Source: Martelella limonii (GTDB taxonomy: Bacteria > Pseudomonadota > Alphaproteobacteria > Rhizobiales > Rhizobiaceae). From it: a DNA stretch of 64,000 nt. The stretch covers positions 248,001-312,000 of the forward strand of contig NZ_JABUOU010000001.1 of the NCBI RefSeq assembly GCF_013344475.1, read 5' to 3'. Below are positions 17,891-44,916 of the stretch, piece by piece (the stretch's first letter is position 1; every line of letters starts with the position of its first letter). The position numbers and the translations under genes were made by a program. Below the pieces are notes generated by a model that made no database searches, had not been told where the DNA came from, and worked only from the letters and a program-made list of their open reading frames with translations.

Positions 17891-17892
17891 GC

Positions 17893-19377: not shown

Positions 19378-19401
19378 TGATTGCTCCTGGTAAGGTTTGG
19401 G

Positions 19402-19782: not shown

Positions 19783-19792
19783 TGGAAAATCC

Positions 19793-24560: not shown

Positions 24561-24561
24561 G

Positions 24562-26762: not shown

Positions 26763-26765
26763 GGC

Positions 26766-27065: not shown

Positions 27066-27066
27066 G

Positions 27067-28470: not shown

Positions 28471-28481
28471 GGTCCCGCGCC

Positions 28482-29183: not shown

Positions 29184-29191
29184 CGGAAACT

Positions 29192-29276: not shown

Positions 29277-29282
29277 ACCCGG

Positions 29283-29907: not shown

Positions 29908-30527
29908 TTCGCCTCCGCCTCCATTGTGCGGACCCGTTCGCCAAGGGTATTCATTACCCTGATCCACTCGGCGCGTGTCAGATCCCGATCGCCCGGATTT
30001 CCGCCGCACAGCATCGGCACCACGGTCCAGAAATCGTTCTGGTCCTGCTGCAGCAAAGCCAATTGCGCAACGGCGATCTTGTAGCCCTCCGCCTGACGCC
30101 AGAGCGGCATCAAGCGGTGAACGCGCCAGTCGACGCCTGCCTCGCGCGCCATCCATGCCTTCAGCGCCTCGATAGCCTTGGCGGCATCATCGGCATAGTA
30201 GAGGAACCGCGTGTGATCGATCCCGGTCTGGCGCTTGACGAAGGCGAGCAACGCCTTGTCGTCGCGGTTCCCGACAATCCCGAGGTTCCACGCGCCGATC
30301 CAGAGCGCCTGGAGTTTCGGCGCAAACGGACCGGCGAGCTTCTTTCTGCCGTCCGGGCGCCGGTCACCGCCAAGCCGCCGAAACTCTTCGGCGACCGCTT
30401 CCTTTTCGGGGTCGGTCATCAAGGTGAGCGAAGGCTTGCCAGTGATCCGCTGATAGACGGCCCGGCGAGCCTCATCATCGAGACCAAGCTTGCCGCAGAT
30501 TGCGTGAATGGTTCGATGAGCGCTCAT
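29904..30527 (-). CDS. gemA: GemA-family regulatory protein (DUF1018)
   Basis: A 207-residue protein that opens with MSAHRTIHAICGKLGLDDEA and contains RAVYQRITGKPSLTLMT, the DUF1018 hallmark, followed by a C-terminal region with PKLQALWIGAWNLGIV. In Mu, GemA (gp16) modulates host gene expression and DNA topology. It is located in the early operon between DUF3164 and Mor homologues as in other Mu-like phages. Confidence 0.88.
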   Translation of the reverse strand: MSAHRTIHAICGKLGLDDEARRAVYQRITGKPSLTLMTDPEKEAVAEEFRRLGGDRRPDGRKKLAGPFAPKLQALWIGAWNLGIVGNRDDKALLAFVKRQTGIDHTRFLYYADDAAKAIEALKAWMAREAGVDWRVHRLMPLWRQAEGYKIAVAQLALLQQDQNDFWTVVPMLCGGNPGDRDLTRAEWIRVMNTLGERVRTMEAEAK

Positions 30528-30528
30528 C

Positions 30529-31296
30529 TCAGCCCGCCCTCGCCAGATCGATCGTGATCGCCTGCCACCGGTCCTCGACCGAGCGCCGGTGATAGAAGCG
30601 GACATACTGCTTCGAGCCCGTCACCCGCATAGCGTCGCGGATTGCGCTCATGGCGCGCTGCCAGCGTGCGTCCTCGATATTGTGGCGGAGCAGGCCGAAG
30701 ATTTCGGCGCGGTTGATCTGGCCTTCCTTGTCGGTGTTGAAGGCGCGGGTGACAATCGCCTGGATCTCCGGACGGCTTTCCGCCGACCACTCGTTGAGGC
30801 ATTCGTCGATCAGACCCTTGGCGATCTGCAGCTCAGGGCCGAAATCGATCCGCTCGGCGACTTGCACCTGAACCTTCAAGAGCCCGTCATAGGACTGATA
30901 GGTCCGGTTCCCCTTCTTGCCGCCCTTGGTGACCTCGTATTCCTGCGCGAGCAGCTCGTCGAAACCGTCGAGGTCGATCATGGTGTGTTCGAGGAACCGG
31001 CCGATCTGGGCGGAAAGGTCGAAGGCGAAGGCTATGACCTTGCGCACCACCTCATCCTCCAGCTTGTGCTGTGGCTTGACGAGATCGAGCGGGACGAGGC
31101 GCGCGCTGGCGTCGGCCATGAAGTCCCGGCCGTTCACGAGTGTGACGCCGGTGCCGATCTCGCGGACCTGCGCCCGGTAAAGCGCCTCCGGCACGAACCG
31201 GCCGCGCACATCTTCGAGATAGCGTTCGCCGCCGATCTCGGCCACGCGGACCTGCCGCTCCTGGTCTTCGAGAATGCATGCTTCCATCGCGTTCAT
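30529..31296 (-). CDS. DUF3164 protein, early operon
   Basis: A 255-residue protein that matches DUF3164 along its length: YLEDVRGRFVPE near the N-terminus, NRTYQSYDGLLKVQVQV in the middle, and YVRFYHRRSVEDRWQAITID at the C-terminus. The family is conserved in transposable phages next to the transposition genes; its function is unknown. Its start overlaps the preceding gene as ATGA. Confidence 0.88.
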   Translation of the reverse strand: MNAMEACILEDQERQVRVAEIGGERYLEDVRGRFVPEALYRAQVREIGTGVTLVNGRDFMADASARLVPLDLVKPQHKLEDEVVRKVIAFAFDLSAQIGRFLEHTMIDLDGFDELLAQEYEVTKGGKKGNRTYQSYDGLLKVQVQVAERIDFGPELQIAKGLIDECLNEWSAESRPEIQAIVTRAFNTDKEGQINRAEIFGLLRHNIEDARWQRAMSAIRDAMRVTGSKQYVRFYHRRSVEDRWQAITIDLARAG

Positions 31297-31526
31297 TTTG
31301 CGTCGCCTTTGCGTGTTTCTTCGGTAAGGGTCAGTTTCAGCGGCGGGAGCCGCGTGTCTGAGAGGAGGCGGTATTCCGCCTCCAGCTCCTCGGTGAGTGC
31401 GATGCCGGTGTTGAGCCGGGTGAGCATGCCCTCAAGCTCGTTGACCGTCGGGCGCTTCTGGGCGCGGATGAACAGCCGCATCTCGTCGCGCACGCCGCCG
31501 AGATAGTCGGATGCCTGCACATTCAT
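31293..31526 (-). CDS. Small early-operon protein
   Basis: A 77-residue, mostly helical protein (MNVQASDYLGGVRDEMRLF) with a Lys/Asp-rich end. It overlaps both neighbours by four bases, so it is clearly part of the coupled early operon. No family is recognised. Confidence 0.65.
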   Translation of the reverse strand: MNVQASDYLGGVRDEMRLFIRAQKRPTVNELEGMLTRLNTGIALTEELEAEYRLLSDTRLPPLKLTLTEETRKGDAK

Positions 31527-31825
31527 CGCCGCCCTCCCGTGAAATCGGGCCGGACGACCTTGCCCTCCGGATCGGTGATGATCTGCGCGAGCTTGCGGCC
31601 TGCTTCCTGCTCAAGCACGCTTCTCTGCGCATTGCTTGCCTCGGTGATCCGGTGGATCGCGACCTCTTCTTCCATTGCGCGGGCAAGCCTGCGCATGCCC
31701 TTCAGCTGCCTGACGAATTTGATGGTTTCCTCCGCCGACAGTGAGCAGCCGGTGTGCGAGCAATCCTCGAACTGGAGGGCGTAATGCGCCAGCGTATCGC
31801 TGAGCGTCGTGTCGAGGTGGCGCAT
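31523..31825 (-). CDS. Small early-operon protein with conserved-looking cysteines
   Basis: A 100-residue protein. The N-terminal part contains CSHTGC and a long amphipathic helix; the C-terminus ends in a basic GGRR. It lies directly downstream of the MuB homologue, where Mu has kil and semi-essential early genes. I do not recognise it as any of those. Confidence 0.65.
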   Translation of the reverse strand: MRHLDTTLSDTLAHYALQFEDCSHTGCSLSAEETIKFVRQLKGMRRLARAMEEEVAIHRITEASNAQRSVLEQEAGRKLAQIITDPEGKVVRPDFTGGRR

Positions 31826-32853
31826 CAGGCGATGTCCTCCACGTCGCGGTTCTTCCAGGCGGTTTCGACATGGCGGACGCTGATCGGCTCGTCATTCGCC
31901 ATGGCAAGCATGGCCGCAAGCTTCAGCGTCTTGTCGATCTGGCCGAGCGCGCCGCCCTTCAGCCCCATGCCGATCAGCGTCTTGACCGCAACCGGATCGG
32001 TCACGCCCCAGGCGTCGATAAAGGCTTCAAGGTCCTGCCGGAGCGGCTGGCGGCGGTTGAGCCGTTTGCCGATGCGGCGGCGAAGCTGGGCATAGGAACG
32101 CCCGTCGGACTTGCTGGCGAAGCGGCCATAGACCTCGTCATTTCCGACGAGCGCCACGCCGCAGCCATAGATATCGACGAAGTGCCGGAGCTGGTTGATC
32201 GCATCATCGACGAGGTTCTGCGCTTCGTCGATGATCAGCAGCGTGCCGCCGCCGATCCGCTCCAGCTTCTTGCCGATTGCCCGCGTCAGCTTGGCCGGAT
32301 TGTGCTCCTGCACATTGAGCTCCGCCGCAAGCTCGATCAGCATCGCATGCACATTCTTGGTGTGAGGGCTCACCGTCGCGAGATAGGCATGGGGCCGGGT
32401 GGCGCAGTAATGCCTGCAGGCCACGGTCTTGCCCATGCCTGCGGCGAGCGTGATGATCACGAAGTCGGAGGTGACCTGCGCCCAATTGAGCGTTTCCAGC
32501 ACCTCATTCGCGGTGCGGGTTTTGAGGAAGGTCGGCGATTGCGGGACTTTTGCCGCGAATGCCGCCTGATCCTCGACATCGTCGAGCCATTGGCGCACCG
32601 TCTGGTTCTGCTTGTCCAGACGGCCGTTATATTTGCCGGAGACCCATTGCGAGAATGTGCCGTCGGCCATGCCGCAGCGGCGCGCCACCTCGGCCTTTGT
32701 CCAACCGTTGGCGTTGGCCACCTCGATCGTGCGGTCGATCAACGACCACCACTGGTCGATGTCGTCCTGGCTGCGGTTTGCGGAAAGCTCCGGTCCCGCG
32801 ACGGGGCGTTCCCAGAGGGTCTTGGTTTGGCTTGTGCCGGAATAGATGTTCAT
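31825..32853 (-). CDS. MuB-type AAA+ ATPase, transposition target selector
   Basis: A 342-residue protein. Residues about 45-80 form a helix-turn-helix (GWTKAEVARRCGMADGTFSQ) as in MuB. The ATPase core has Walker A LAAGMGKT (about 136-143) and Walker B LLIIDE (about 205-210). MuB forms filaments on target DNA, attracts the transposase complex and gives immunity to self-insertion. AAAGGAACC lies upstream of the ATG. It follows the transposase gene. Confidence 0.92.
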   Translation of the reverse strand: MNIYSGTSQTKTLWERPVAGPELSANRSQDDIDQWWSLIDRTIEVANANGWTKAEVARRCGMADGTFSQWVSGKYNGRLDKQNQTVRQWLDDVEDQAAFAAKVPQSPTFLKTRTANEVLETLNWAQVTSDFVIITLAAGMGKTVACRHYCATRPHAYLATVSPHTKNVHAMLIELAAELNVQEHNPAKLTRAIGKKLERIGGGTLLIIDEAQNLVDDAINQLRHFVDIYGCGVALVGNDEVYGRFASKSDGRSYAQLRRRIGKRLNRRQPLRQDLEAFIDAWGVTDPVAVKTLIGMGLKGGALGQIDKTLKLAAMLAMANDEPISVRHVETAWKNRDVEDIA

Positions 32854-32878
32854 TTATGGTTCCTTTGCTTTAACTGTT

Positions 32879-32906
32879 GGGCGGGGGTGACCCCGCCCGT
32901 TTTTTT
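32879..32906 (+). terminator. Plus-strand terminator between transposase and MuB genes
   Basis: GGGCGGGG and CCCCGCCC around a GTGA loop are followed by GTTTTTTT on the plus strand. It therefore faces against the early operon and should stop antisense transcription entering the transposase gene. Confidence 0.75.
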
Positions 32907-32947
32907 GGAACCGTACGCACTACATTTCGGTTGTCCGCCGGACATGA

Positions 32948-34906
32948 CTAGGCGTCCGACGCCTTCCCTTTCGGGAACTTGATCACCCCGCCATCGCCCC
33001 GGATCATGGACATGGCGCGGGAGAAACTCTCTTCGAAGTCGATCTCATCTTCCTGCTGCCGCGGCTTCATCTGCGGCACGGTTGCAATGCGCGTGATGAC
33101 CGGGCGCTGAGGCTCGACAGGTGAGGGGGCTGCAGGCTTTTCGCCGCGATAGATGATCTCGCCGAGCTCGCGCGCGGTGAGTTTCTGTTTGGCTGCGAGT
33201 TCTGCCTTCTGGGCGCGCGCGAATTCGCGGCGGGTCTTGTTGTGCTCCCTGGCTTCGCCAAGGTTGAGGAAGCCCGCATCGTCGATGCAGTCTGCTTCGC
33301 AGATCAGCCTGTCCTCCAGATCGTAGATCCTTACGGACTGGTGCAGGTTGTCCGGATCGAACCGGATCGTGACCTTCTTGCCCGCAAATTGGGTGAGCTC
33401 CGCCGACCAGTAGCGGTTCTTCTGGAAATGGATCATGCCATTGCCCTTGGCGGCCTTGATGCCCTCGGAGGCGAGCAGCCAGAGCGAGCGCTGCGCTGTG
33501 GTCGGCCAGCGAACGATGCTTGTCGGGCTGGCTAGGCTTTCCTCGAACGTCTCGTCGAAGCTGCGGCCCCGGCAGGTCTCCGCCCGGCGTCCTGTCTGGG
33601 CGTTGTGTTCGGCGATCTGGGCGGCCACATGAGCTTTGAACTGATCGAGCGGGATCGCGCGCTCGCGATAGTTCTCGGGCTTGGCATCTGGCTTGTTGCC
33701 GGTATAGGCGCCCGAGCAGAAGGGATGCTTGCCGATCGCCTCGGCCAGATCACGCCAGGCGCGCTCGATTGGCTTCGATTGGCCGGAATAGGGCAGGGAC
33801 CAGTGCAGATTGATCCCGAGCGTCGTCACCAGCCCGCGCGGATCTTCCTCGCGAACCTTGTTGCGGAAGCGCGTCGGCGTCTGGCCTGAAATCCACTTGC
33901 TGGCAAAGGCGCGCCCGTTGTCCAGCACCATGTCATCGGGAATGCCGAATTGCTCGACCATGTCGCCGATAACGAGACGCACCGCCGTCCAGGTCTCCGC
34001 TTCCGAAAGCCGCCACGCGACGATCTTGCCGGAATAGACGTCCTGAATGGCGATCAGATACATGCGGGTCGGCTCTTTCGCCCAGGGGACGGATATGAAG
34101 ACATCGACCTTGTGGCCGTCCATGTTCACGACCTGCATCGCGTGGAGACCCGCCCGGCTGCGGCGCTGCGCCGGGTAGAGCGCCTTCGCCTTTTCCTTGC
34201 CGTCGCGGGCGATTACCTGTTCGGCGCGCGGGACTTCCGCCTCCAGCCGGCGACGCAGCGAACGTTCGCCGGGAACGGGCGTCCATCCTTCGCGTTTGGC
34301 AACCTTGATCATCCTCCGATAGCAGGCCGAAAACGCCGGGCGCTCCGGGCGAAGATAGTCGGAAACAAGAAACTGCCATGCTTCCTCATTGCATTCAGCC
34401 GCCCGTGTCGCGGATGAAAATGAGGGTGCGAGTGCGGCGAGCCAGTCGGCGCGCGGGGCCTTGTCGGCAAGCGACTGCCAGTAATAGAGCACGCGCTGAC
34501 TGACGCCTTCCATTTTCGAGACAACCTCGAAGGCTGTCCGCGCGGTCACGCCCGCCTCGATCATTTCACGGACCTTCAAAAGCGCCTTCAAACGCCTTTC
34601 ACAGGCTAGCTTATGGGCCTTCGAAAGGGCTTCATATTTCGCCCAGAGCGCTTTTCTGGCGGTGGCGGTTTCCCGGTCCCGCTTGTTCTCGGCTTCCAGA
34701 TGGCCGACATGCAGCCTTGCCTGCGCGGCATTGGGCAGGAGCGAGATATGGTATTCAAACCCGCCGCCGCGCCCGGCGCGCTTGCGGACATGGCCGCTCG
34801 CACGCCAGCCCTGGCGTTCGCCAAATTGCTCGATGCCGCGCCGCGTACCCGGCATGTCCGGAAGCTTTGCGTCGGCGAGTTCTGCAGAGGTAAACCACTC
34901 CTTCAT
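32948..34906 (-). CDS. MuA-type DDE transposase
   Basis: A 652-residue protein. Residues 1-60 form the Mu-type DNA-binding domain (MKEWFTSAELADAKLPDMPG). A helix-turn-helix region for end binding follows, then an RNase H-like core with the acidic triad at about D263 (VNMDGHK), D329 (MVLDNGRAF) and E381 (SKPIERAWRD), spaced as in MuA. A C-terminal beta barrel and a basic region for MuB contact come last. It carries out strand transfer during replicative transposition. All catalytic residues are present. Confidence 0.96.
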   Translation of the reverse strand: MKEWFTSAELADAKLPDMPGTRRGIEQFGERQGWRASGHVRKRAGRGGGFEYHISLLPNAAQARLHVGHLEAENKRDRETATARKALWAKYEALSKAHKLACERRLKALLKVREMIEAGVTARTAFEVVSKMEGVSQRVLYYWQSLADKAPRADWLAALAPSFSSATRAAECNEEAWQFLVSDYLRPERPAFSACYRRMIKVAKREGWTPVPGERSLRRRLEAEVPRAEQVIARDGKEKAKALYPAQRRSRAGLHAMQVVNMDGHKVDVFISVPWAKEPTRMYLIAIQDVYSGKIVAWRLSEAETWTAVRLVIGDMVEQFGIPDDMVLDNGRAFASKWISGQTPTRFRNKVREEDPRGLVTTLGINLHWSLPYSGQSKPIERAWRDLAEAIGKHPFCSGAYTGNKPDAKPENYRERAIPLDQFKAHVAAQIAEHNAQTGRRAETCRGRSFDETFEESLASPTSIVRWPTTAQRSLWLLASEGIKAAKGNGMIHFQKNRYWSAELTQFAGKKVTIRFDPDNLHQSVRIYDLEDRLICEADCIDDAGFLNLGEAREHNKTRREFARAQKAELAAKQKLTARELGEIIYRGEKPAAPSPVEPQRPVITRIATVPQMKPRQQEDEIDFEESFSRAMSMIRGDGGVIKFPKGKASDA

Positions 34907-35361
34907 GACCGCCCCCGCCGAATGTTCACCGGCCGCGCCGTCAGCGTCTTCAGCTCGGCAGTCAGCCTGCGGCGCTCCTGTTCAAGCCGAGCGATCTCTC
35001 CAAGGCGCGCCTCGTCGCCCTCCAGCAGCAAAAGGCCGTCATCGGAAACGATCTCGTCCCAAAGCCAAACCGCGCCGGTTGCTCGAACGAACGCCTTGAA
35101 GCGCGCGAGGCTGATATCGTGGCCGTTCTTGCTTTCCGCCGTGTAGGCATCGAGCGTCGCCTTGGAGATGGTCGAAAGGCCGAGATAAAGCGCCATCCGC
35201 GCCGCGATCGTGGGCCGGTCGTAAGGGCATTCGCGGATCGCCCGCGCCATGGCACGCTTCACCCGTGCCCGGAAACGCTCCAGGTCGATGGATTGTGCGG
35301 CCTCGCGCACCGGAAAAAGCGGTGCGGCAAAGAAATCGAGCTGATCGGGATCGGGCTTCAT
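34903..35361 (-). CDS. Early-operon DNA-binding-like protein
   Basis: A 152-residue protein with a basic helical N-terminal half (RARVKRAMARAIRECPYDRP), a helix-turn-helix-like YLGLSTISKATLDAYTAES, and a C-terminal coiled coil ending in a basic tail. It lies between the ParB-like and transposase genes and overlaps both by four bases. The family is found in Mu-like phages of alphaproteobacteria, but I cannot name its role. Confidence 0.6.
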   Translation of the reverse strand: MKPDPDQLDFFAAPLFPVREAAQSIDLERFRARVKRAMARAIRECPYDRPTIAARMALYLGLSTISKATLDAYTAESKNGHDISLARFKAFVRATGAVWLWDEIVSDDGLLLLEGDEARLGEIARLEQERRRLTAELKTLTARPVNIRRGRS

Positions 35362-36170
35362 GCCGCATCCTCCAGACCGATTTCAGCCAGAAACGCCTTG
35401 CGCGTGGCATCATCGGCGTTCGACCATATCTCCAACAGGGCCTTCAGCATGCCGTCGCGCTTCGCTTCTGGCTTTTCCGAGGGCCGGACGGCCTTCACAT
35501 GGCCGAGCGCCTTCTTCAGGTCGCCGTTCTCGGCGCGAAGGGCAATGGCCGCGCGCCGCTGCTCCTGCGGCTCCATCTTGGCAAGCTTCAGGAGCGCCGC
35601 CTGATTATCGGCCACCGGCGTGCCGCGCAGGGCGGCGCGTAGATCGGAATGCAGACGCTGAGCTATGCGGTTCAGTCGTTTAATCGCGTCGGGGGAGACA
35701 CCCATTCTGTCGGCGACATGCTTCGAAAAGCCGGCTTTGGCTTCGTCACCGATAATTAGGGGCAAGTTGCCCCTAATTGCCTTTGGTCCCGATACGATCT
35801 TTCCATACTTGTCTTCCCAGACATCGCGATACGTCTGAACGAAAACGGCTCTATCAATCACCGAAAGCTCATTGCGGAAAAGGTTCTCAGTGATCTCCAG
35901 AAGCACTGCTTCCTGCTGATCGGCATCGACGACGACCGCATCGATCTCCGTCTCGTCGAGCAGCTCCATGGCGCGCAGGCGGTGCGCTCCGGCCACCAGC
36001 GTATAAGCACCGCCCTTCGCGGCGGGTGTCGCACGAACGGTCACCGGGTTCAAAAGCCCGTGCTCGACAATGGAGGCCGAAATAGCCAGCGCATGGTCTT
36101 CCTCAACCGCGCGGAGCCGCTCAGGTACATGGATTTTGGCAATCGGGATCGTCTTGGAAACAGCCATCAC
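35358..36170 (-). CDS. ParB/Spo0J-like nuclease-domain protein
   Basis: A 270-residue protein. The N-terminal ParB-like domain (about 5-95) has IPIAKIHVPERLR, then LVAGAHRLRAMELL in the GEHRxxA position and ITENLFRNELSVIDRA matching ENLxRxDLxPIE. A helix-turn-helix follows at about 140-170. ParB domains bind CTP and DNA. In transposable phages such proteins may act in regulation or replication. Start at 36170 or 36167. Confidence 0.85.
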   Translation of the reverse strand: MMAVSKTIPIAKIHVPERLRAVEEDHALAISASIVEHGLLNPVTVRATPAAKGGAYTLVAGAHRLRAMELLDETEIDAVVVDADQQEAVLLEITENLFRNELSVIDRAVFVQTYRDVWEDKYGKIVSGPKAIRGNLPLIIGDEAKAGFSKHVADRMGVSPDAIKRLNRIAQRLHSDLRAALRGTPVADNQAALLKLAKMEPQEQRRAAIALRAENGDLKKALGHVKAVRPSEKPEAKRDGMLKALLEIWSNADDATRKAFLAEIGLEDAA

Positions 36171-36520
36171 GCTGCCTCCTCGTAGATGGAGGTCAGCGCC
36201 GCGTCGGCGCGTTCTGCCATGGCGGCGTAGTAGGCCAGAAACACCGGATTTCCGCAGCGCTCGTCGATGATACGCAGCGCCCGATAGACGGACTCGCGGG
36301 ATCTTTCCTGCATTCGCGCCACGCGCCGTTTCGGCACGTTGAACTTGCGGATCAGCATGTGCAGCGCAATCTGGCGCGCCAGCGCCGCATCAAACATCTC
36401 GTGGGGAGGGTCGATGATCTCGCCGATCGTCAGATAGGGAAACCCTTCCCGCACCGCCATCACGCAGGCATGGTAGAGCGCGTGTTCGCGTTCCTGGGCG
36501 CTGTAAGGATTGAAGGTCAT
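36167..36520 (-). CDS. Small helical early protein with HTH-like region
   Basis: A 117-residue protein. The start MTFNPYSAQEREHALYH at 36520 is preceded by GGAG six bases away; the frame upstream of it covers a structured non-coding region. The FNVPKRRVARMQERSRESVY segment looks like a helix-turn-helix. It is coupled to the ParB-like gene by a 4-base overlap. Confidence 0.6.
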   Translation of the reverse strand: MTFNPYSAQEREHALYHACVMAVREGFPYLTIGEIIDPPHEMFDAALARQIALHMLIRKFNVPKRRVARMQERSRESVYRALRIIDERCGNPVFLAYYAAMAERADAALTSIYEEAA

Positions 36521-36616
36521 GCGTCGCTCCGGCATGTCGAGGCCGCAATGCTTGATGTCTAATTCGCCGAGACGATTAGACTTGTGGTTGCGGCGGAAAA
36601 CGGAAAAAATGTGACT

Positions 36617-36728
36617 CGTGGAGCGGAAGGACAGCGCGCGTCGGCCGGGGGCTCGAGGTCTCGATAGAGACGGGCCTCTCCCAAATACCGGAGAACTGGC
36701 CAGAACCGTCTGACCCTCCCGCTCCACG
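36617..36728 (-). repeat. Long-range inverted repeat upstream of early genes
   Basis: CGTGGAGCGG (36617-36626) and CCGCTCCACG (36719-36728) are perfect complements about 90 bases apart, and a small GTCTC/GAGAC hairpin lies between them. The whole could fold into a multi-branched RNA in the early transcript between the Ner-like gene and the next gene. Confidence 0.45.
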
Positions 36729-36732
36729 TTCA

Positions 36733-37020
36733 TCAGGCGGCGTCCTTCGTGGTCTTCTCGCCTGTGGACTCTGCCGCGTATTCGCGCGACAGAATGGTGT
36801 TCGACCGTTTGGGATAGCGGCCGGGGAAAAGCAGTTCGACGGGAACCTTGAGAAAGCGGGCGATGGCACGCTCCACTTTCTCATTCGGCCGCTTCCATAC
36901 GGCGCGGAAGGTTCCGGGGTTGAGTTTGTTGATCTCAGCGAGCTTCGTCAGCGTCATGCCGCGACGATGAAGCTCCGCCTTGATCGCGAACTGATCCCAC
37001 GTTCTGGGTTTATCCGGCAT
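36733..37020 (-). CDS. Ner-like DNA-binding regulator
   Basis: A 95-residue protein. The first 75 residues (TWDQFAIKAELHRRGMTLTK through NPGTFRAVWKRPNEKVERAI) match the Ner/Nlp family of helix-turn-helix proteins. Ner in Mu shuts down early transcription and the repressor gene. It is divergent from the repressor, and GGAGAGACAG precedes its ATG. Confidence 0.9.
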   Translation of the reverse strand: MPDKPRTWDQFAIKAELHRRGMTLTKLAEINKLNPGTFRAVWKRPNEKVERAIARFLKVPVELLFPGRYPKRSNTILSREYAAESTGEKTTKDAA

Positions 37021-37037
37021 CTGTCTCTCCGGTCAGG

Positions 37038-37063
37038 GGGCTGTTCGCGCAGCCCTTATTTTT
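37038..37063 (+). terminator. Hairpin with T-run in the divergent control region
   Basis: GGGCTG and CAGCCC pair around TTCGCG, followed by TTATTTTT on the plus strand. Read as plus-strand RNA it is a terminator that would block transcription from the early operon side into the repressor. On the minus strand it is a hairpin in the Ner leader. Confidence 0.5.
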
Positions 37064-37106
37064 GGTCAAACAACGCGCATTTGCCGTCAGCGAGTGCGCT
37101 ACAGAA

Positions 37107-37154
37107 ATTAATAAACACAAAATGGGATTTGTAAACCCCAAAGTGTGTTTTGGG
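37107..37154. promoter_or_regulatory. Early promoter (minus) and adjacent operator dyad
   Basis: On the minus strand TTTACA (37130-37135) and ATTAAT (37107-37112) are 17 bases apart, upstream of the Ner-like gene. Beside the -35 box lies a dyad of CCCAAA and TTTGGG with a 6-base spacer (37137-37154), flanked by outer AACCCC and GGGGTT arms. It lies within the divergent repressor/early gap and is a likely repressor operator. Confidence 0.55.
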
Positions 37155-37161
37155 TGGGGTT

Positions 37162-37866
37162 GTGGCGAGGCAGGAACGGATAAAGACGGAGCTCGGTCGA
37201 CGGTTGCGCGAAATACGCGTTGAGCAGGGGGACCCCTCAAGGGAGGAGTTCGCTCCAACTTTGGGATTGCATGTCAATAGCTTAGCTAATTATGAGCGCG
37301 GAGATAGAGCCCCGAACATTGATGTTCTTCTGGCTTACCGGGAAAACCTGCACGTGGACCTCCATTGGCTTTTAACCGGTGAAGGCGAGATGTTCGGCGA
37401 CGCTCTAAAACTACAAAGTGGGGCTAACCTCACATCGGAGGCTGGGAAGCGTTTGCTTGCGCTTCCTTATTTTGACGCTGAGGCTTCTGCAGGTGTTGGA
37501 CGCATCGCGCTGGACGAATTGCCCTCCGGCTCAATAGCTTTCGAACGGGCCTTCCTCCGCAACCTGGGCGCATCACCGGACAATTGCTTCATCATAAAAT
37601 CGTATGGCGACAGCATGCTGCCAACGATCCCAGACAATTCCCTTCTGATCGTAGACGAAAGCCAAACCGAAAAAATCGAACACGGCTGCATCTACGTCTT
37701 CAGGGTAGGGGAGATCATGCTGGTAAAACGCGCCAAATGGCACATGACCGGAAAGCTAGAGCTGAGCTCGGACAACGATACCTATCAGTCCGAATTCCTC
37801 GACCAAACGCACGCGGACACGCTGAGCGTGTTAGGGAGGGTGGTGTACTTTTGCAGGGTGCCGTGA
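37162..37866 (+). CDS. LexA/CI-type phage repressor with S24 autopeptidase domain
   Basis: A 234-residue protein. GTG at 37162 is preferred because GGGTGGGG lies just before it; an in-frame TTG at 37150 is less likely. Residues 1-60 form a helix-turn-helix (SREEFAPTLGLHVNSLANYE). The C-terminal S24 domain has Ser151 in YGDSMLP, Lys189 in MLVKR, and an Ala-Gly cleavage candidate at about 110-111 (EASAGVG). It should keep lysogeny and self-cleave in the SOS response, unlike the Mu c repressor. It is divergent from the Ner-like gene. Confidence 0.92.
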   Translation: MARQERIKTELGRRLREIRVEQGDPSREEFAPTLGLHVNSLANYERGDRAPNIDVLLAYRENLHVDLHWLLTGEGEMFGDALKLQSGANLTSEAGKRLLALPYFDAEASAGVGRIALDELPSGSIAFERAFLRNLGASPDNCFIIKSYGDSMLPTIPDNSLLIVDESQTEKIEHGCIYVFRVGEIMLVKRAKWHMTGKLELSSDNDTYQSEFLDQTHADTLSVLGRVVYFCRVP

Positions 37867-37960
37867 AGAGTACACTCTTGTAAAATTTAGCAGCGCGTTT
37901 GAAAAAGAGAACTATTTAATTTGCACCCAGCTTGCGGCCGGAAGCGTAGAGGAGGAAAAG

Positions 37961-39808
37961 ATGCGTTCGTTTACAAAACTTAACTTAGGGTTCAGCAATG
38001 CAGAAAATTATAGAAGGAGGGAGAATAAAGATATTTTCTCAAGGTATTTCGTGAGAGATGAAAATTTAGAGAGAATAATTGATAGTAATATATATTTCCT
38101 TGTCGGAGAAAAAGGGACTGGTAAAACTGCATATTCGACATATTTATCAAATACAAAATATAAAAATAAAAATTCATTTTCTTTTGATGTCAGGCAGACA
38201 GAGTATCAAAAATTTATAGAGATAAAGAAATCAGGAAATCTCCCATTAAGTCAATATTCTGAAGTGTGGTCGCTGATATTTCTAATTCTATCGGCTACAA
38301 GTGTTCTGAGTGTAACAAGTACTCCCGCGTTTCTTCAGAGGTTTACCAAGATATCTCACCTTAAGAAGGCGATAGATGACTTTTATAAAGGGGCGTTTTC
38401 ACCAGAAATAGTTAAAATTCTTAGTTTTATACAATCTTCTGAAAATTCAGCATCATTGATCGCTAAATATAGCAACTTAGATGCGTCCCTTTCATCAAAG
38501 AAAAGGAATGAGACAAGGGATCAAAACTCCACGTTTCAAACCAACATTTTAAGTATCAGGCGTTCATTTGAGGATGCTATCTCTTCCTTGAAGCTCGATG
38601 AAGATTTTATTTTATTTATCGACGGAATCGATGTTCGGCCTGCGAACATTCCATATGATGAATATTTTGACTGCGTTCGAGGAATAATTGAAGCGACCTG
38701 GTCAGTTAACAACGACTTTTTCGCAAATATTAAGGATAGCCGCGGCCGCATCAAGGTTGTCCTTCTTGTTCGACCGGACATTTTTTTCAGATCTGGCCTC
38801 CACAATGTTAATACGAAGGTGCGCGATAATTCAGTACTTTTAGATTGGAAGACTGCCTATAAAGATCACCGGACTTCTCGGCTATTCTCTGTCGCAGATC
38901 GCATGCTGTCTGTTCAAAATGACGAGGTTGAAAGTGATGGCGCGGCATGGGACTTCTACTTTCCTTTTGAAGCCGGCAGCACCGTCGGATCCGATAGCGG
39001 CGAAGCCGATTCTACGACAACTTCGTTCATTTCTTTTCTTAGGTTTAGCTATCATCGTCCTCGCGACATAAACGCGATGATGTCTACTCTTCAGGAAATT
39101 TTGAAACGAAGAGGTGAGGTCGTCTCGGTAGAAAGGCGAGATTTTGATGATCCCACATTCCGCGACGCATTGGCAAACTACCTTTTAGGTGAATTGAAAG
39201 ACCAACTTCTCTTTTATTATAGCCAATCAGACTATGAACTTTTTCTTGCATTTTTCTCATACTTGGACGGAAAGATGAGATTTTCATACGATGAATATCT
39301 CGACAGCTTTCATGCGTTTATTGATAGCTGTTCCAGGTCGAGTACCGAATTGCCAAAATTCTTTGAATCTTCGGATGTGTTTTTGCAGTTTTTGTTCGAG
39401 CAAAATGTTATTTGTTACAAGGAGGGAGAGGGTATTTATGACCAATATTCGAATGATGATAAGACATTTATTAGATGGTGTTTTAGAGAGCGGACCTCCT
39501 CGAACTTGAATCCCAAAGTAAGAACGCATGTTAATTATGAGATATTTTATGGATTGACGAAGGCTCTAAATATAGGAAAGAGAATTAGGGTAGATAGAAA
39601 TAAAGAAAAGCGGGAAATAGGAACTGTTATCAAAGCGAAACCCAAATCAAATTTCGGTTTCATAAGGGGAGGCACGCAGCATTTAGATTATTATTTCAAG
39701 TTTTTCGATTTGGAAGCGGGCTACAAGCCGAGAGTTGGAGATCGAGTTAGCTACACTGCTACCATAGAGAATGGCAAAACTCGGGCAAAAAAAATCAGAA
39801 GGGCATGA
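37961..39808 (+). CDS. P-loop NTPase with C-terminal cold-shock-like domain (candidate defence protein)
   Basis: A 615-residue protein; GAGGAGG precedes the ATG. Residues about 35-60 have Walker A VGEKGTGKTA, and Walker B is ILFIDGID near 220. It resembles the Sll1717-type P-loop ATPases of bacteria. The last 65 residues (EIGTVIKAKPKSNFGFIRGG, then DYYFKFFD and GDRVSYTAT) match a cold-shock OB-fold, with GFI as RNP1. The gene is markedly AT-rich compared with the phage. It sits alone after the repressor in a block containing a restriction-modification system. A defence role is inferred; no activity is known from the sequence. Confidence 0.75.
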   Translation: MRSFTKLNLGFSNAENYRRRENKDIFSRYFVRDENLERIIDSNIYFLVGEKGTGKTAYSTYLSNTKYKNKNSFSFDVRQTEYQKFIEIKKSGNLPLSQYSEVWSLIFLILSATSVLSVTSTPAFLQRFTKISHLKKAIDDFYKGAFSPEIVKILSFIQSSENSASLIAKYSNLDASLSSKKRNETRDQNSTFQTNILSIRRSFEDAISSLKLDEDFILFIDGIDVRPANIPYDEYFDCVRGIIEATWSVNNDFFANIKDSRGRIKVVLLVRPDIFFRSGLHNVNTKVRDNSVLLDWKTAYKDHRTSRLFSVADRMLSVQNDEVESDGAAWDFYFPFEAGSTVGSDSGEADSTTTSFISFLRFSYHRPRDINAMMSTLQEILKRRGEVVSVERRDFDDPTFRDALANYLLGELKDQLLFYYSQSDYELFLAFFSYLDGKMRFSYDEYLDSFHAFIDSCSRSSTELPKFFESSDVFLQFLFEQNVICYKEGEGIYDQYSNDDKTFIRWCFRERTSSNLNPKVRTHVNYEIFYGLTKALNIGKRIRVDRNKEKREIGTVIKAKPKSNFGFIRGGTQHLDYYFKFFDLEAGYKPRVGDRVSYTATIENGKTRAKKIRRA

Positions 39809-39912
39809 TAAGTTTATTGGCCTGATACCGAGTACTTATTATTGGGTTTGCTAAAGTTTGGGCAGGTGCCTCTTTCGTTAGTTTTTTGATCCAGCTGTCG
39901 AAAGAGCCGCCT

Positions 39913-40041
39913 TTAGGTGAGATAGTGAACCACTGATCCGCGTTTCACACCCGAAATCACCAGCAGCGTCCAGCCCATAGCCTCGTATTCAGCCATTTGC
40001 CGCTGATCTCGCGCGACATTGCCGTCGAGCTTCCTCTCGTT
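39913..40041 (-). pseudogene. vsr: Fragment of vsr (C-terminal part)
   Basis: The minus strand encodes KLDGNVARDQRQMAEYEAMG followed by WTLLVI, matching the C-terminal half of very-short-patch-repair endonucleases. There is no N-terminal part, and the region after WTLLVI is not conserved. The plus-strand sequence between the two NTPase genes (39809-40150) otherwise holds no gene. Confidence 0.7.
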
Positions 40042-40150
40042 CTGTTTAGGGGAGACCGATTGCAGCCACGACCTCAAACAATCTAAGTCTGCAGTGTTTG
40101 GACGCTGAGTCGAGCCCTCTGTCGGCGACTGGGAGAAGAAGAGAACGCAT

Positions 40151-41662
40151 ATGAGCGATGAAATCTGGCATGAGGATCGTCTCAACCGTGAAGCCGATGC
40201 GAAATTTCTTATCCGGTTTCTGATCAACAGAATTGAGGAGCGAGCGCGGAGCGGCAGAACCAGATCCTACGTGCTCAATGTTAACGCGTCATGGGGCACT
40301 GGAAAAACGTTCTTCCTGGAGCGGCTTCAGCGTCAGCTCGAAAGTGAGCAGTATCCCGTGGCTTATGTGAATGCCTGGGCCGATGACCACGCTGCCGACC
40401 CTCTCCTGTCGGTCATGTCTGCGATCGACGAAGCCATCCAGCCCCTCATTGTCCATGACGAGGAGCAGGTCGAGAGGTGGAGAAAGGTAAAGGCCACCGC
40501 TAGCATTGTCGCGGTGTCCATCGCCAAGGGTGCGATTAAGCATTGGGCACGGAAGGCGATCGGAGAGGGGGCCGATGCAATCGGCGAGGCTGTTTTCGGC
40601 AACGATCAAAGCAGCGACGGCCGCAGCCAGCCTGTGATGGCCGATAGCATCAATGCAGAGCTGAACAGTGCCATTGACGACTATTCAAACAAACTTCTTT
40701 CCGGCTTCCGACGTAACAGAGAGATGATAGATCGCTTTCGCTCAGGCTTGAAGGAGTTCATCGAAAAGGTCGACACGGGAAGCCTTCACGCGCCTCTGTT
40801 CGTTCTCATAGACGAGCTTGATCGTTGCCGCCCGCTTTACGCCATAGAGCTGCTGGAGCGGATTAAACACATTTTCGAAACCGACAACGTCGTCTTCATC
40901 ATCGCCACGGACACTGATCAGCTTGGGCACTCGGTCAAAGCGATTTATGGGAGCGATTTTGACGCCGAGCGCTATCTGATGCGTTTCTTCGACCGAAGTT
41001 ACGAATTTGAGGAGCCGAGCGTCGAAGAATATGTAATTGAGCTTTGCGCACGATATAGAATTAATGAAGAAGATAGCTATAGCCTGCCTCGAGGCGTCGA
41101 CGTAGCAACATATTTGGCTGGGTGCTTCCACTTTCTGGGCCTTACGCTTCGGGATGTTGATCAATGCTTAGATATAATCCGAATCATTGAGACGACATGG
41201 ATATGGCCAGACCTGAAGATACAGATTTGTCTATTGGCTCCTTTGGTGGCCATTTATCAGCAGAAAAGAAGCATAAAAGGCGTAGAAATTATAAAAATTG
41301 AATTAAAAAAAATCCTCGAGACGAGGTCCAGCACAGGAAATACGTGGCTTTTTAATAAGGAAGGAGCAGCACCATTTGACGGGAGTGCAGCATTTCAAGG
41401 ACTGCTGGTGGGTTCCGTAAAAACTTTGTCTGCATCGTCAGAATTAGAAAATAATTCCTTCCGTTCTCCTTCCAATAATCTCACAACAAGTTGGGTCACC
41501 CGGCAATTTCAAGATGAGTTGATATCGTTGCATTCCGTCGATGGTAAGCTTATTCGAGAAGATGCTTTTTCTATAACCAGACAGTACCCGGACTTTATCA
41601 GAAGTGCCGGGAGACTTGTTGGACCCGCCTTCGACAAGGACGGCGCAAAGCCAAGAAACTAA
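40151..41662 (+). CDS. KAP-family P-loop NTPase (candidate defence ATPase)
   Basis: A 503-residue protein. The KAP core has Walker A NASWGTGKTFFL (about 44-55) and Walker B FVLIDELDRCRP (about 217-228), the typical KAP DELDRCxP form. A small helical insert with AIKHWARKAIGEGADAIGEA may form membrane-associated helices as in many KAP proteins. KAP NTPases are common in phage-defence islands. It is flanked on both sides by vsr pieces, suggesting recent insertion or rearrangement. The effector, if any, is not evident. Confidence 0.85.
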   Translation: MSDEIWHEDRLNREADAKFLIRFLINRIEERARSGRTRSYVLNVNASWGTGKTFFLERLQRQLESEQYPVAYVNAWADDHAADPLLSVMSAIDEAIQPLIVHDEEQVERWRKVKATASIVAVSIAKGAIKHWARKAIGEGADAIGEAVFGNDQSSDGRSQPVMADSINAELNSAIDDYSNKLLSGFRRNREMIDRFRSGLKEFIEKVDTGSLHAPLFVLIDELDRCRPLYAIELLERIKHIFETDNVVFIIATDTDQLGHSVKAIYGSDFDAERYLMRFFDRSYEFEEPSVEEYVIELCARYRINEEDSYSLPRGVDVATYLAGCFHFLGLTLRDVDQCLDIIRIIETTWIWPDLKIQICLLAPLVAIYQQKRSIKGVEIIKIELKKILETRSSTGNTWLFNKEGAAPFDGSAAFQGLLVGSVKTLSASSELENNSFRSPSNNLTTSWVTRQFQDELISLHSVDGKLIREDAFSITRQYPDFIRSAGRLVGPAFDKDGAKPRN

Positions 41663-41755
41663 GTGATTTTAGAGGTAAAGCTAGCGGCCATTACGCCGGC
41701 ATTGTGATGACCTAACGCAACGCAATAGAGTGGAAGGCAGATCGCCTTTCGTATA

Positions 41756-42049
41756 TCACACTGCCTGGACACCATTGGCCTCCAGCCCATAGCTCAACCA
41801 TGTGCTGCTGATCTTGCGCAGCATTGCCGTCGAGCTTTTTTGTCCAGTAATCGGAATTTGAGGCTGACCGCTTGGCGCGGGATAGCCTTCGTGTTGATGC
41901 CAGAAGCAGCCGTGCACGAAGACGGAGACGCGGCGGCTGGGAAAGACCAGGTCCGATTGGCCCGGAAATGTCTTGTCGTGAAGGCGATAGCGCAGCCCGC
42001 TAGCATGTAGATAGCGCCGCACGATCATCTCAGGCTTTGTGTCCGTGGC
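41756..42049 (-). pseudogene. vsr: Broken vsr endonuclease gene
   Basis: The minus strand carries TDTKPEMIVRRYLHASGL and on to VHGCFWHQHEG, a clear Vsr N-terminal and catalytic region. The frame then shifts: the continuing YWTKKLDGNAAQDQQ is in another frame and soon degenerates. The opening Met-containing part is also missing, since the frame runs back into the stop codon of the endonuclease gene. Vsr normally repairs T:G mismatches formed by 5-methylcytosine deamination and accompanies C5-methyltransferases. Confidence 0.8.
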
Positions 42050-42067
42050 ATTGGAAGAGGTGGATGG

Positions 42068-42910
42068 CTAGCGGCGCCCTAGCGCATTCGCTATCCGCTT
42101 CTTGAACTCGTCGATTGTCGGCGCTTCTTTGTACATAATCGCACTTTGCAGACTGGCATGGCTGGTGCCTTCGACGCGCTCCAGCTTGGGCCGAAATTGG
42201 CCGGAATTGTCAGGATCATCTTCGAATACGTAGGTCATGAAAACTATATTGACCGTCTTGTCCTTGACGTTCGGTGTTCTCATGAAGTCAGCCTTCTCAA
42301 GGACAGACTGGTAGACCTGATCCTGTATCACCGCGACGATTTTGGTTCCCCAGTGGTGGTGGAAATACCCTTTTCGCACGAGTTGGGTGATATATCGCTT
42401 ATAAACATTATCCCAATTAAACCCGTAGGTCGGTCGCTTTGGAAGGTCATGGGCAGATCGCAACGCTTCATAAGCGGTATATGCAGATCCGGTGATATCG
42501 ACGGCTTGAAGCTCGACTGACAGAAAATTGCCTATCTCGCCGCTATCACCTCGATCGGCTATAACGAAATCGACATTGCCGAAACCAGCCATCTTCACTT
42601 CGGACGCGATCATTGCATTCCTCGGCGGATCAAATGGCCAGCAGTGTTCGATTACCTCCTGCAGCCAGTCTACCTGGTAGAACCTCTTTGGGCAGACACA
42701 TATCAAGTCGCGTTCCGTGGACCGGGGCTGGCCGCGCGAACCTCTCCAGAGTGTGCAGACCGGATAGGGTTCCGTACCCAAATTCGTCGACCGTTTCGGG
42801 CATTCGGTCTCGATGTAGGGACAAACAAAGCCGGCTAAAGAAGGATCGATTGCCTTCTCCGCTCGTTGGCCCAAGACCTCACCGATTGCATCTTCCGGCT
42901 TAAACGGCAT
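42068..42910 (-). CDS. Type II restriction endonuclease, NotI family
   Basis: A 280-residue protein. The start MPFKPEDAIGEVLGQ at 42910 lies just inside the 3' end of the methyltransferase gene. Cysteines in FVCPYIETECPKRS, YPVCTLW and ICVCP fit the four-cysteine metal site of NotI. The catalytic core NVDFVIADRGDSGEIGNF followed by SVELQAVDITGSAY matches D...ExQ with the NotI-type IQTMDFHGS context. It cuts unmethylated double-stranded DNA at a probably GC-rich site. It forms an operon with the methyltransferase. Confidence 0.8.
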   Translation of the reverse strand: MPFKPEDAIGEVLGQRAEKAIDPSLAGFVCPYIETECPKRSTNLGTEPYPVCTLWRGSRGQPRSTERDLICVCPKRFYQVDWLQEVIEHCWPFDPPRNAMIASEVKMAGFGNVDFVIADRGDSGEIGNFLSVELQAVDITGSAYTAYEALRSAHDLPKRPTYGFNWDNVYKRYITQLVRKGYFHHHWGTKIVAVIQDQVYQSVLEKADFMRTPNVKDKTVNIVFMTYVFEDDPDNSGQFRPKLERVEGTSHASLQSAIMYKEAPTIDEFKKRIANALGRR

Positions 42911-44057
42911 GCAACAATCCACGCTCGATATCGAGCGGAATGTCGCCGCGCGAAGACGCATCTGCTGCCATTACGGCTTCTGCAACGGCTTTCCCCAAAA
43001 GGGGAGGGACCGCATTCCCAACCTGGACGAACTGCTCAGTTCGGCTTCCTTTGAAATCAAAGAAATCGGGGAACCCCTGCAACCTAGCAGCTTCACGCAC
43101 CGTGAAAGAGCGGTTCTGTGTCGGGTGGATATAGGCGCCCCAATGTACGTCGCATTTGGTGAGCACGGTGCAAGACAGATCAGTCTTGCGAGGGCGACCG
43201 TAACGCTTTGTGTGGTCTGAGCGCTTCGCCTTTTTCATTCCCTCCGGCAACAAATGAAAAGGAATATCACGCCAGGACCCACCTTCGGGGATGTGGCGCA
43301 TACGCTCGATATTGACCTGCGATAGGCGTGTCGCGGCATGATTGGAAACCCGAATACGGTCACCGCGAAGAAGCGCCTGATATCCATTCTGCGGTGAAAC
43401 AGCGTAAGGCTGATCGCCGCGATCCTCACCGTTTTCAAGGTGGGGAAGATCGGAGATTGCATCCCAAACAGTCACAAACGGCTCGAGCTCTGGACCATAA
43501 GTCGGCGTTGGGAAGAGAATAGGATTGTTCTCTTCTCTGGTGGCAATGAAAAACACACGTCGCCTCTCCTGTGGAACGCCAAATTCCTCAGCCTTCAGCG
43601 GTTTCATATCTACACGATAGCCCAGCTTGCGCATGCCAGCCTGGATCTCTCTTACGATCCCGCCCCCTGCAATCGATGTGATGCCGGTAACGTTTTCCAT
43701 GACGATCCAGCGCGGTCGAATTTCTTCGACGATCCGAAGATACTCTTTGAATAAACCTGCGCGAGGGTCATCTATGCCGCGGCTGTGATTGTAGACACTG
43801 TAACCTTGGCACGGCGGTCCACCAACGATGACATCTATCTCGCCCGCGTTGACGCCGGCTGCAGCAAGCATGTCCGAGGCCGATATCTCTTGGATCGGTC
43901 CATGAACAAACTTGGCTTCGGCGTGGGATGCGGCAAAAGTCTCGCCGAATGTTGCATCAATATCTTGCCCTGCAAGCACGTGCACACCAGCTTGGCGAAA
44001 CCCTTCCGACAAGCCGCCCGCACCGCAAAAAAGATCGATCGCTGTCCAGTTGCTCAT
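42900..44057 (-). CDS. DNA (cytosine-5-)-methyltransferase of the restriction-modification pair
   Basis: A 385-residue enzyme with all main motifs: I DLFCGAGGLSEGF (residues about 9-21), IV GGPPCQGYSVYN with catalytic Cys, VI MENVTGI, VIII QERRRVFFIA, IX REAARLQGFPDFF and X VQVGNAVPP. It methylates the site cut by the adjoining endonuclease. GAGGGCGG precedes the ATG. A dyad lies in its leader. It overlaps the endonuclease gene by 11 bases, so expression is coupled with modification first. Confidence 0.95.
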   Translation of the reverse strand: MSNWTAIDLFCGAGGLSEGFRQAGVHVLAGQDIDATFGETFAASHAEAKFVHGPIQEISASDMLAAAGVNAGEIDVIVGGPPCQGYSVYNHSRGIDDPRAGLFKEYLRIVEEIRPRWIVMENVTGITSIAGGGIVREIQAGMRKLGYRVDMKPLKAEEFGVPQERRRVFFIATREENNPILFPTPTYGPELEPFVTVWDAISDLPHLENGEDRGDQPYAVSPQNGYQALLRGDRIRVSNHAATRLSQVNIERMRHIPEGGSWRDIPFHLLPEGMKKAKRSDHTKRYGRPRKTDLSCTVLTKCDVHWGAYIHPTQNRSFTVREAARLQGFPDFFDFKGSRTEQFVQVGNAVPPLLGKAVAEAVMAADASSRGDIPLDIERGLLHAV

Positions 44058-44080
44058 GACCGCCCTCTCGAATTTTCAGC

Positions 44081-44101
44081 CGCGTGGGCATGTTCCACGC
44101 G
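44081..44101. promoter_or_regulatory. Dyad in the methyltransferase leader
   Basis: CGCGTGG and CCACGCG arms are separated by GCATGTT, about 24 bases before the methyltransferase start and just downstream of a TACTAT box on the minus strand. It may be an operator for autoregulation; no controller protein gene is seen nearby. Confidence 0.4.
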
Positions 44102-44871
44102 CATAGTATGTTTGGTGTAGCGCGATTCGGACTTTGTTCCTACATCCGGCAGCCCGTCTTCCAGGCAAGTTTCAGCAGCTGGATGTCAAAGACAGTCCTT
44201 CGTCAATTAGTGATCAAGGTTAGGTAGAAGCGGAGGGTGTCAGTGCTGAGGCATGTTTGCGTCTCGACAACCCGCATAGCGCGTTCGCCGAACTGACAGC
44301 TTCTTGATCTACGCAACTACCATGTTTTTGTTCTTATAATGTTCTCGTATGCGGGTGTAAAGTCCATAAGCGGTAGCGAAAATCCGCTTGCATGTTCAAA
44401 ACGTGTCAATTTTCGGTGATGGCTTTGATTTCTTTGTTGTTTTCGCAAACATGCAAGTGACTTGCATGTTCGGTTTGGATTTTAGCCTGATTTGACCGCC
44501 GGCTGCCGCTCGATTGAGGTTGCTTTGAAGACGGTTTCAAGGGCATTTGAAGCCACACCGTGAAAACTCCTCCAAACCCGTGAAGCCTTATATCTCGGGC
44601 ACTTGGCGGGGAGGGGGCGTCTCAGTTCCATAAGGGGCCTTATGACGCATCAGCGTCGGATGCTTCTATTTTCACGTTTTTTGAAAAGGTTGGCTGCGAC
44701 TGGGCTGCGCTCAGGCTAGACGATGAACTTTGAAGACCTGAGCTGTCAAAGGCAATTCCTAGCGTCGCCGCCCGTCATATCGGCAGATCGCTAGAGGTAG
44801 AGGGCATTCGCGCCGGTTCCCGCCTGTTTTCGCCAATTCCCGGATATTGCAGCCTCATCTGGCAAACAACA
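44102..44871. other. Gene-free stretch at the outer edge of the cargo block
   Basis: I find no convincing gene in these 770 bases in either strand. It contains a perfect palindrome at 44449-44469 with arms ACATGCAAGT and ACTTGCATGT around one G, and an extra CTTGCATGTTC copy at about 44388. It ends where the second right-end repeat begins. It is the region where the phage left terminus would be expected, but no inverted copy of the terminal repeat is visible. Confidence 0.5.
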
Positions 44872-44916
44872 GCGGTTTTGCAATTTTGACAGTTGGTTTT
44901 GCAGCGATTGAGTTTT
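44872..44916. repeat. Second copy of the right-end repeat
   Basis: GCGGTTTTGCAATTTTGAC followed by AGTTGGTTTTGCAGCGAT is nearly identical to 858-897, differing at two or three positions. The outer TGTAGCGTGAC part of the unit is missing. It has the same orientation as the copy at the main right end. Confidence 0.8.

Follow-up and report, generated by a model that had tools for sequence, protein, structure and literature searches.

Why does a Mu-like prophage of Martelella limonii carry, directly behind its repressor, a strongly AT-rich gene for a P-loop ATPase with a putative nucleic-acid-binding domain at its end? The gene is located at 37961..39808 on the plus strand of the window, i.e., the whole 64,000-nucleotide stretch that was analysed and to which all coordinates refer, and an earlier note on the same DNA had proposed for it a plausible but undescribed anti-phage mechanism. 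The current analysis places the encoded protein of 615 amino acids in the family of Fun(Z), the known exclusion protein of phage P2. The ATPase family itself has thus already been described, and what is new here is its rare fusion to a cold-shock domain.

Identity of the gene

The open reading frame is intact, and its ATG has a strong ribosome-binding site just 5', a Shine-Dalgarno-like AGGAGG read from the sequence at 37950..37955 (plus strand). The GC content of the gene is 0.386 (GC3 0.380) versus 0.624 in the prophage part 813-37866, and, in steps of 50, the lowest-GC stretches of this length anywhere in the window all overlap 37961..39808, which confirms that it is AT-rich relative to the surrounding prophage. 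NCBIfam model NF047389 (P-loop ATPase, Sll1717 family) matches residues 9-536 over model positions 1-454 of 454 (E 5e-52), and the score of 177.5 bits exceeds the curated cut-off of 75. Phage P2 Fun(Z) is 45.7% identical to residues 1-543 (E 6e-152) and ends where the 615-aa protein runs on for about 70 residues more. Judged by these comparisons, membership of the protein in the Fun(Z) family is close to certain. No model of PADLOC 2.0 (2023 defence library) matches its ATPase part.

The database record of P2 Fun(Z) (NP_046777.1) states that a clone stops the growth of T5, that the gene is nonessential and belongs to lysogenic conversion, and that it makes cells sensitive to FUdR. In the consulted sections of PMC8594841 (BASEL), Fun/Z inhibits all Tevenvirinae, Vequintavirinae and Markadamsvirinae of that study plus a Felixounavirus, its reach is the widest of the five abortive-infection systems compared, and how it acts against T5 is given as unknown. 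In the part of PMC9519451 used here, the fun site of P2-like phages is named among the loci enriched in defence genes. The anti-phage role postulated for the gene is therefore well supported at the family level by homology, given the identity to a protein that blocks T5 and has the BASEL target range. Based on P2 Fun(Z) and on the cargo slot described below, the 615-aa protein probably protects its lysogen against other phages. Open-access literature under the name FunZ comprised unrelated papers only, judged by titles and abstract openings, and nothing was found there on Sll1717 or on P2 fun together with ribonucleotide reductase (RNR).

A variable cargo slot in a Mu-like prophage

The gene occupies the slot between the repressor and the left end of a Mu-like prophage at 813..44871, whose ends have the form TG...CA and are flanked by the target-site duplication GCGGT (left copy, 808..812; right copy, 44872..44876). 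The prophage begins with TGTAGCGTGACGC... at 813 and terminates with ...CAACA at 44871, and the same end sequence is found in the genus relative G247 and in the viral contig L090. An intact end of an older, related phage results when the flanks are joined by eye, so the Mu-like prophage was inserted within this end, beside a tRNA-Leu gene. Phage end remnants in the window (701-905 and 44858-44916) begin at 795, 813, and 845, and a further one is located at 44872. The end motif is present in six genus relatives (G222, G247, G250, G251, G252, and G253) and lies close to tRNA-Leu in four of these, namely G247, G250, G252, and G253, which suggests a Mu-like phage with a preferred target.

The repressor gene (HTH plus S24 peptidase; 37150..37866, plus strand) ends 94 bp upstream of the Fun(Z) homologue and has the same orientation. 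The description of the gene as a lone one with the repressor on one side and a restriction-modification system on the other holds for the adjoining repressor but not for the opposite flank, where a separate cargo gene for a KAP-family P-loop NTPase (40151..41662, plus strand; PADLOC candidate PDC-S20, E 3e-84) intervenes. It is followed on the minus strand by genes for a short Vsr-type endonuclease of 90 aa that aligns from profile position 26 (41756..42028), a NotI-family restriction endonuclease (42068..42961), and a C5-cytosine DNA methyltransferase (Dcm; 42900..44057). A 44-nt direct repeat (86% identical), located upstream of the KAP gene (39989-40032) and inside the short Vsr gene (41794-41837), is possibly an insertion scar. 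Outside the newer prophage, a DUF2971 gene at 44965-45924 matches PADLOC candidate PDC-S31 (E 3e-42), and a Dam-type methylase ORF at 46603-47289, which at its end shares 94% identity across 300 nt with the gene of the prophage itself at 2482-2781, is a probable remnant of the older phage.

The related prophages of G247 and G250 and the viral contig L090, whose MuA proteins are 85-93% identical, carry other cargo between repressor and left end, and no match to the Fun(Z) homologue was detected in their stretches. The slot of G247 (L084:1043-6252) contains a ThsB-type TIR protein, a caspase-like protein, and three proteins of 242, 349, and 402 aa without a PADLOC match, a possible TIR-caspase defence system. 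That of G250 (L087:10339-16034) encodes Dcm, a histidine-kinase-like protein of 1003 aa that combines two HATPase regions with HEF_HK, and a Response_reg_2 (receiver) protein, and L090 harbors SLFN_AlbA_2-AAA, an Eco57I methylase, and a XamI endonuclease. All four readable slots, including that of the Martelella prophage, thus differ in cargo, and each contains defence-like genes. The slots considered were those of phages with a MuA identity of 79% or more; the flank of L171 (G081, MuA 79%) is too short, and 79 other viral contigs with MuA of at most 58% identity were excluded.

A predicted AAA+/STAND-like core

Residues 1-541 (37961..39583, plus strand) are collinear with P2 Fun(Z) and represent, according to predicted folds that include a homologue close to the P2 protein, an AAA+/STAND-like ATPase core with a winged-helix-like C-terminal part. 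Across 48 aligned sequences, G49, K51-T56, D221, D224, R271-D273, and R366-D369 are invariant. Walker A (residues 49-56, GEKGTGKT; 38105..38128, plus strand) is accordingly conserved except for E50, and Walker B (residues 217-224; 38609..38632, plus strand) retains D221 and D224, which, together with the NF047389 score, bears out the P-loop NTPase recognised in the earlier note.

The model of the near-P2 homologue (46 sequences; mean pLDDT 88, pTM 0.88) has its best structural matches among AAA+ proteins of the TnsC, Sso1545, and Cdc6/Orc1 types with Z scores of about 11 (TnsC with DNA, 11.4). Lower scores were obtained for the STAND proteins RPP1 (Z 9.8) and CED-4 (Z 9.6) and for proteasome and p97 chains (9.4-10.3). 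Among the 48 homologues, 22 match Pfam nSTAND3 at E <=0.01 (best, 1.6e-7), with a weak value of E 0.068 for the 615-aa protein itself, and 16 match ORC-CDC6-like at the same threshold. Hence, the core of the Fun(Z) family is predicted to be an AAA+/STAND-like ATPase with a winged-helix-like end, while a finer placing is not safe at middling Z scores of about 11. A BFVD fold search gave no match at E <=0.001, and no effector domain was recognised in the 615-aa protein.

The C-terminal cold-shock domain

The claim that a cold-shock domain follows the ATPase has weak backing at the sequence level, where Pfam CSD reaches only 14.6 bits on the 615-aa protein, below the gathering cut-off of 27, and PADLOC CSD_V (E 0.004) and the cold-shock chain of UNR (E 0.02) are similarly modest; it is upheld by the predicted fold. 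The PADLOC model presumably derives from the accessory cold-shock protein of type V retrons. In the AlphaFold model (48 sequences; mean pLDDT 81, pTM 0.78), residues 546-615 (39596..39805, plus strand) superimpose on the cold-shock domain of YBX1 with Z 12.1 and rmsd 1.8 over 70 residues and on CspA with Z 11.8, so that this part is predicted to adopt a clear cold-shock (OB) fold. The aromatic motifs FGFI and YYFKF align with the positions of the two RNP-like motifs of cold-shock domains.

Apart from the 615-aa protein, the domain is found in two of the 52 homologues with a readable C-terminus, i.e., in a Phenylobacterium homologue (L005; YGFI and YYFKF), whose gene contains one in-frame stop at codon 306, and on a phage contig (L053; FGFI and LFFHR), whose domain exceeds the Pfam cut-off with 35.9 bits. 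The count is based on 63 loci from two scans (48 plus 15) and leaves out nine partial or weak loci (L040, L046-L052, and L067) and two frameshifted ones (L035 and L039); the 52 include near-copies (L033/L060; L054, L055, and L062). A tree of 54 rows groups the 615-aa protein with L005 in one clade (100/100) and places L053 elsewhere. Parsimony on this tree gives two changes in the cold-shock state, but a single origin is also conceivable. Six further loci (L007, L012, L023, L028, L041, and L064), in which tblastn matches run past the stop, were considered for readthrough from the core into a cold-shock domain; inspection by eye revealed no cold-shock sequence after the stop. No description of a cold-shock domain fused to a Fun(Z)-family ATPase was found in the open-access papers searched.

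Distribution and neighbourhoods of Fun(Z) homologues

Homologues were recovered from, for example, Pseudomonadota, Bacteroidota, Bacillota, Chloroflexota, Acidobacteriota, and Methanosarcina. They are nevertheless rare: among the sampled genomes, one was detected in 1 of 247 of the bacterial family and in 1 of 385 of the class, in both cases in the source genome itself. A scan of viral contigs with the 615-aa protein alone returned no result, and a rescan with 48 sequences recovered the 15 loci already found. A CI repressor gene (Pfam CI_repr and CI_C) precedes the homologue on the same strand by 10-35 bp in the phage contigs L058, L059, L063, and L064. Three of these four upstream genes contain two copies of the CI-type HTH, and a CP76 (CII-type) gene is located nearby on the opposite strand in both contigs tested.

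When all ORFs lying up to 1.5 kb from the homologues were compared with one another, no operon partner was shared across the family; the clearest repeated upstream neighbour is the CI repressor. The tally of neighbours covered 54 loci, without L015, L051, L054, L055, L060, L062, and L067, and comprised 131 ORFs of 140-1200 aa at a distance of up to 1.5 kb; neighbour families were drawn from the first 25 of 343 PADLOC and the first 25 of 142 Pfam families. Among the matches listed, at least five of the 131 ORFs match phage integrase, at least four CI repressor, and at least four CP76; MADS, methyltransferase, Fic, PtuA, housekeeping families, and others are represented, again among the matches listed, by one to three each. 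The tally is purely descriptive and includes both defence-like and housekeeping contexts.

Ribonucleotide reductase as a lead to the trigger

Which property do the phages excluded by Fun(Z) share? Sensitivity was taken from the group-level text of the consulted sections of PMC8594841, rather than from plating values of individual phages, so that "not inhibited" means absent from its list; the N4-like group is the sole one that this text calls highly resistant. Type phages of the sensitive groups (T4, T5, rV5, and FelixO1) and of groups missing from that list (N4, T7, T3, T1, HK578, CAjan, 9g, and lambda) were our own choice and are not necessarily all included in that study; P1 and P2 were searched as well but do not enter the counts.

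The large subunit of RNR (PF02867) is encoded by all four sensitive type phages and by none of the eight others, and it is absent from P1 and P2 (Fisher's test for 4/4 versus 0/8, 0.002, with phages that are not independent draws). Ten BASEL isolates, chosen by spaced accession numbers, and phi92 show the same distribution: the gene is present in 5/5 members of sensitive groups (Bas33, Bas45, Bas61, Bas63, and phi92) and in 0/6 isolates of other groups (Bas01, 02, 04, 13, 19, and 24). Bas61 and phi92 are representatives of Justusliebigvirus and were counted under the "Vequintavirinae and relatives" of the consulted text of PMC8594841. At the BLASTP level, NrdA, NrdB, and NrdD are the only ORF families common to all four sensitive type phages, and this trio was the same at E cut-offs of 1e-10, 1e-4, 1e-3, and 1e-2 and had no match in the eight other phages. 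The underlying all-against-all comparison covered ORFs of at least 80 codons and, in T5, the first 120,000 of 121,750 bases, and ORFs interrupted at the borders of 20-kb stretches may be missed; Pfam identities were obtained for seven of the shared FelixO1, T5, and rV5 ORFs.

Thymidylate synthase (ThyA or ThyX) was considered as an alternative trigger. It is encoded by 4/4 sensitive phages versus 1/8 others, and since this exception is N4 with a ThyX-like gene, RNR fits slightly better. Genome size is a confounder, because the four sensitive type phages have 86-169 kb and the eight others 38-70 kb. The 94.8-kb phage P1, which is devoid of RNR, could separate size from RNR. Its status is ambiguous in the consulted parts of PMC8594841, where all other tested Myoviridae are called sensitive, yet P1 is missing from the inhibited phages listed in the discussion. 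The RNR link is accordingly a post hoc, size-confounded association and not a proof, but it points to disturbed deoxynucleotide (dNTP) pools as the trigger. FUdR is an inhibitor of thymidylate synthesis, and the FUdR sensitivity conferred by fun(Z) combined with the RNR association makes disturbed dNTP pools the simplest common signal. A comparable case is the Clover system, for which the consulted text of PMC12265719 reports that CloA is activated by raised dTTP and that mutations in dmp, nrdA, and nrdB let T5 and Bas28 escape.

Proposed mechanism and alternatives

The reading that we prefer, with a confidence just short of even, is that the gene encodes an exclusion ATPase of the Fun(Z) type, a single-gene prophage system of the abortive-infection kind that is exchangeable cargo of a Mu-like phage and has acquired an additional cold-shock domain. 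Its AAA+/STAND-like core would be held inactive in healthy cells and would be switched on when dNTP pools are disturbed, either by phage RNRs that take over the dNTP supply or by FUdR that blocks thymidylate synthesis. The switched-on and probably oligomeric ATPase would then stop replication or growth. We advance this complete sequence from dNTP disturbance to arrest tentatively, with its trigger suggested by the phage comparison. Apoptotic protease-activating factor Apaf-1, a STAND relative, uses dATP, which makes a nucleotide-gated switch plausible and proves nothing. The cold-shock domain would bind single-stranded DNA or RNA and thereby either hold the ATPase at sites of phage replication or transcription or tune its activation; that it localises or tunes the enzyme by such binding is a quite conceivable addition, to which we attach somewhat less than even confidence. 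It appears rather doubtful that this extends to a general scheme, in which a widespread single-gene Fun(Z) defence is switched on by RNR- or FUdR-dependent changes of dNTPs and a cold-shock domain acquired by some members guides the ATPase to single-stranded nucleic acid.

A serious, if rather unlikely, alternative is that Fun(Z) recognises a state of the DNA generated by large virulent phages, i.e., stalled forks, single-strand gaps, or breakdown of the host chromosome, by means of its Orc/TnsC-like AAA+ and winged-helix parts, with the cold-shock domain adding the binding of single-stranded DNA. The structural matches of the core to DNA-binding AAA+ proteins (TnsC with DNA and Cdc6/Orc1) and the ORC-CDC6-like matches in 16/48 homologues are in line with this model, as are the basic C-terminal tails of L014, L031, L058, and L053, but the AAA+ likeness is generic, given that proteasome and p97 chains score almost as high. 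FUdR causes stalling of replication forks, which would suit such recognition. T7 also degrades host DNA, yet its group is not among the inhibited phages listed in the consulted text of PMC8594841.

The proposal of the earlier note, in which the cold-shock OB-fold is the sensor of phage RNA or DNA and the ATPase the executor, is quite improbable. The clear cold-shock fold with its conserved aromatic surface and the precedent of CoCoNuT defence systems, whose McrB-like GTPases bear CSD-like OB folds (PMC11090510, in the part consulted), argue for such sensing. However, P2 Fun(Z) works without a cold-shock domain, and 50 of the 52 readable homologues likewise lack it; OB-fold sensing can therefore not be the core mechanism of the family. 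A phage function of another kind, for instance in maintaining lysogeny or controlling replication, with exclusion arising incidentally, is very unlikely: the gene adjoins the repressor co-directionally, as in four other phage contigs, and some homologues stand beside housekeeping genes, but the slots of G247, G250, and L090 carry other cargo without a match, and P2 fun(Z) is annotated as nonessential.

If the preferred reading of a dNTP trigger is true, it would unite two old phenotypes of P2, the exclusion of T5 and the sensitivity to FUdR. The link between the target range of Fun(Z), the phage RNRs, and FUdR opens this trigger to direct tests with phage mutants. The cold-shock fusion illustrates how the Fun(Z) core can be re-equipped, and the slot between repressor and phage end is a place to seek further defence genes in this family of Mu-like phages.

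Comparison with known systems

The P2 gene fun(Z) is a long-known phage-exclusion gene of Escherichia coli, of which the Martelella prophage gene is a distant copy with an extra, putatively nucleic-acid-binding domain. Both proteins are collinear over residues 1-543 with 46% identity, share the Walker and RPRDI motifs, and are encoded by a single prophage cargo gene. The P2 protein, however, has 528 aa and stops before the cold-shock domain of its 615-aa counterpart, and fun(Z) is located between tail genes in P2, whereas the Martelella homologue follows the repressor of a Mu-like phage. STAND and Orc/Cdc6-like AAA+ proteins (nSTAND3 PF20720 and PF24389; PDB 2fna, 2qby, and 7ufi) have the P-loop fold and the winged-helix-like C-terminal part in common with the protein, but the sequence likeness is weak, and neither a repeat sensor nor an effector domain was recognised in it. 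In type V retrons, a cold-shock domain also occurs in a phage-defence setting, but there the accessory cold-shock protein is a small stand-alone protein encoded beside a reverse transcriptase, whereas here the domain is fused to an ATPase.

In the Clover system, CloA is of the HD type. The consulted text of PMC12265719 describes it as a dGTPase with the nucleotidyltransferase CloB as partner, and no such domain was found in the 615-aa protein or, with Pfam, NCBIfam, and PADLOC, in the scanned cargo neighbours. The likeness lies in the proposed trigger, phage enzymes that alter dNTP pools, which for Fun(Z) is a tentative suggestion, and the same text of PMC12265719 shows that dNTP-pool sensing exists in phage defence. 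CnuB of Type I CoCoNuT systems (PMC11090510, in the part considered) combines an NTPase with a CSD-like OB-fold and is predicted to act in phage defence. It has a McrB-like GTPase, an N-terminal CSD, coiled coils, and the partner CnuC, whereas the 615-aa protein has a C-terminal CSD, an NTPase of another family, and no partner that was found; the latter lacks a McrB-type Pfam match, and no McrC-like match was present among the cargo proteins scanned. In the part considered, CoCoNuT nevertheless documents that predicted defence NTPases can bear CSD-like domains.
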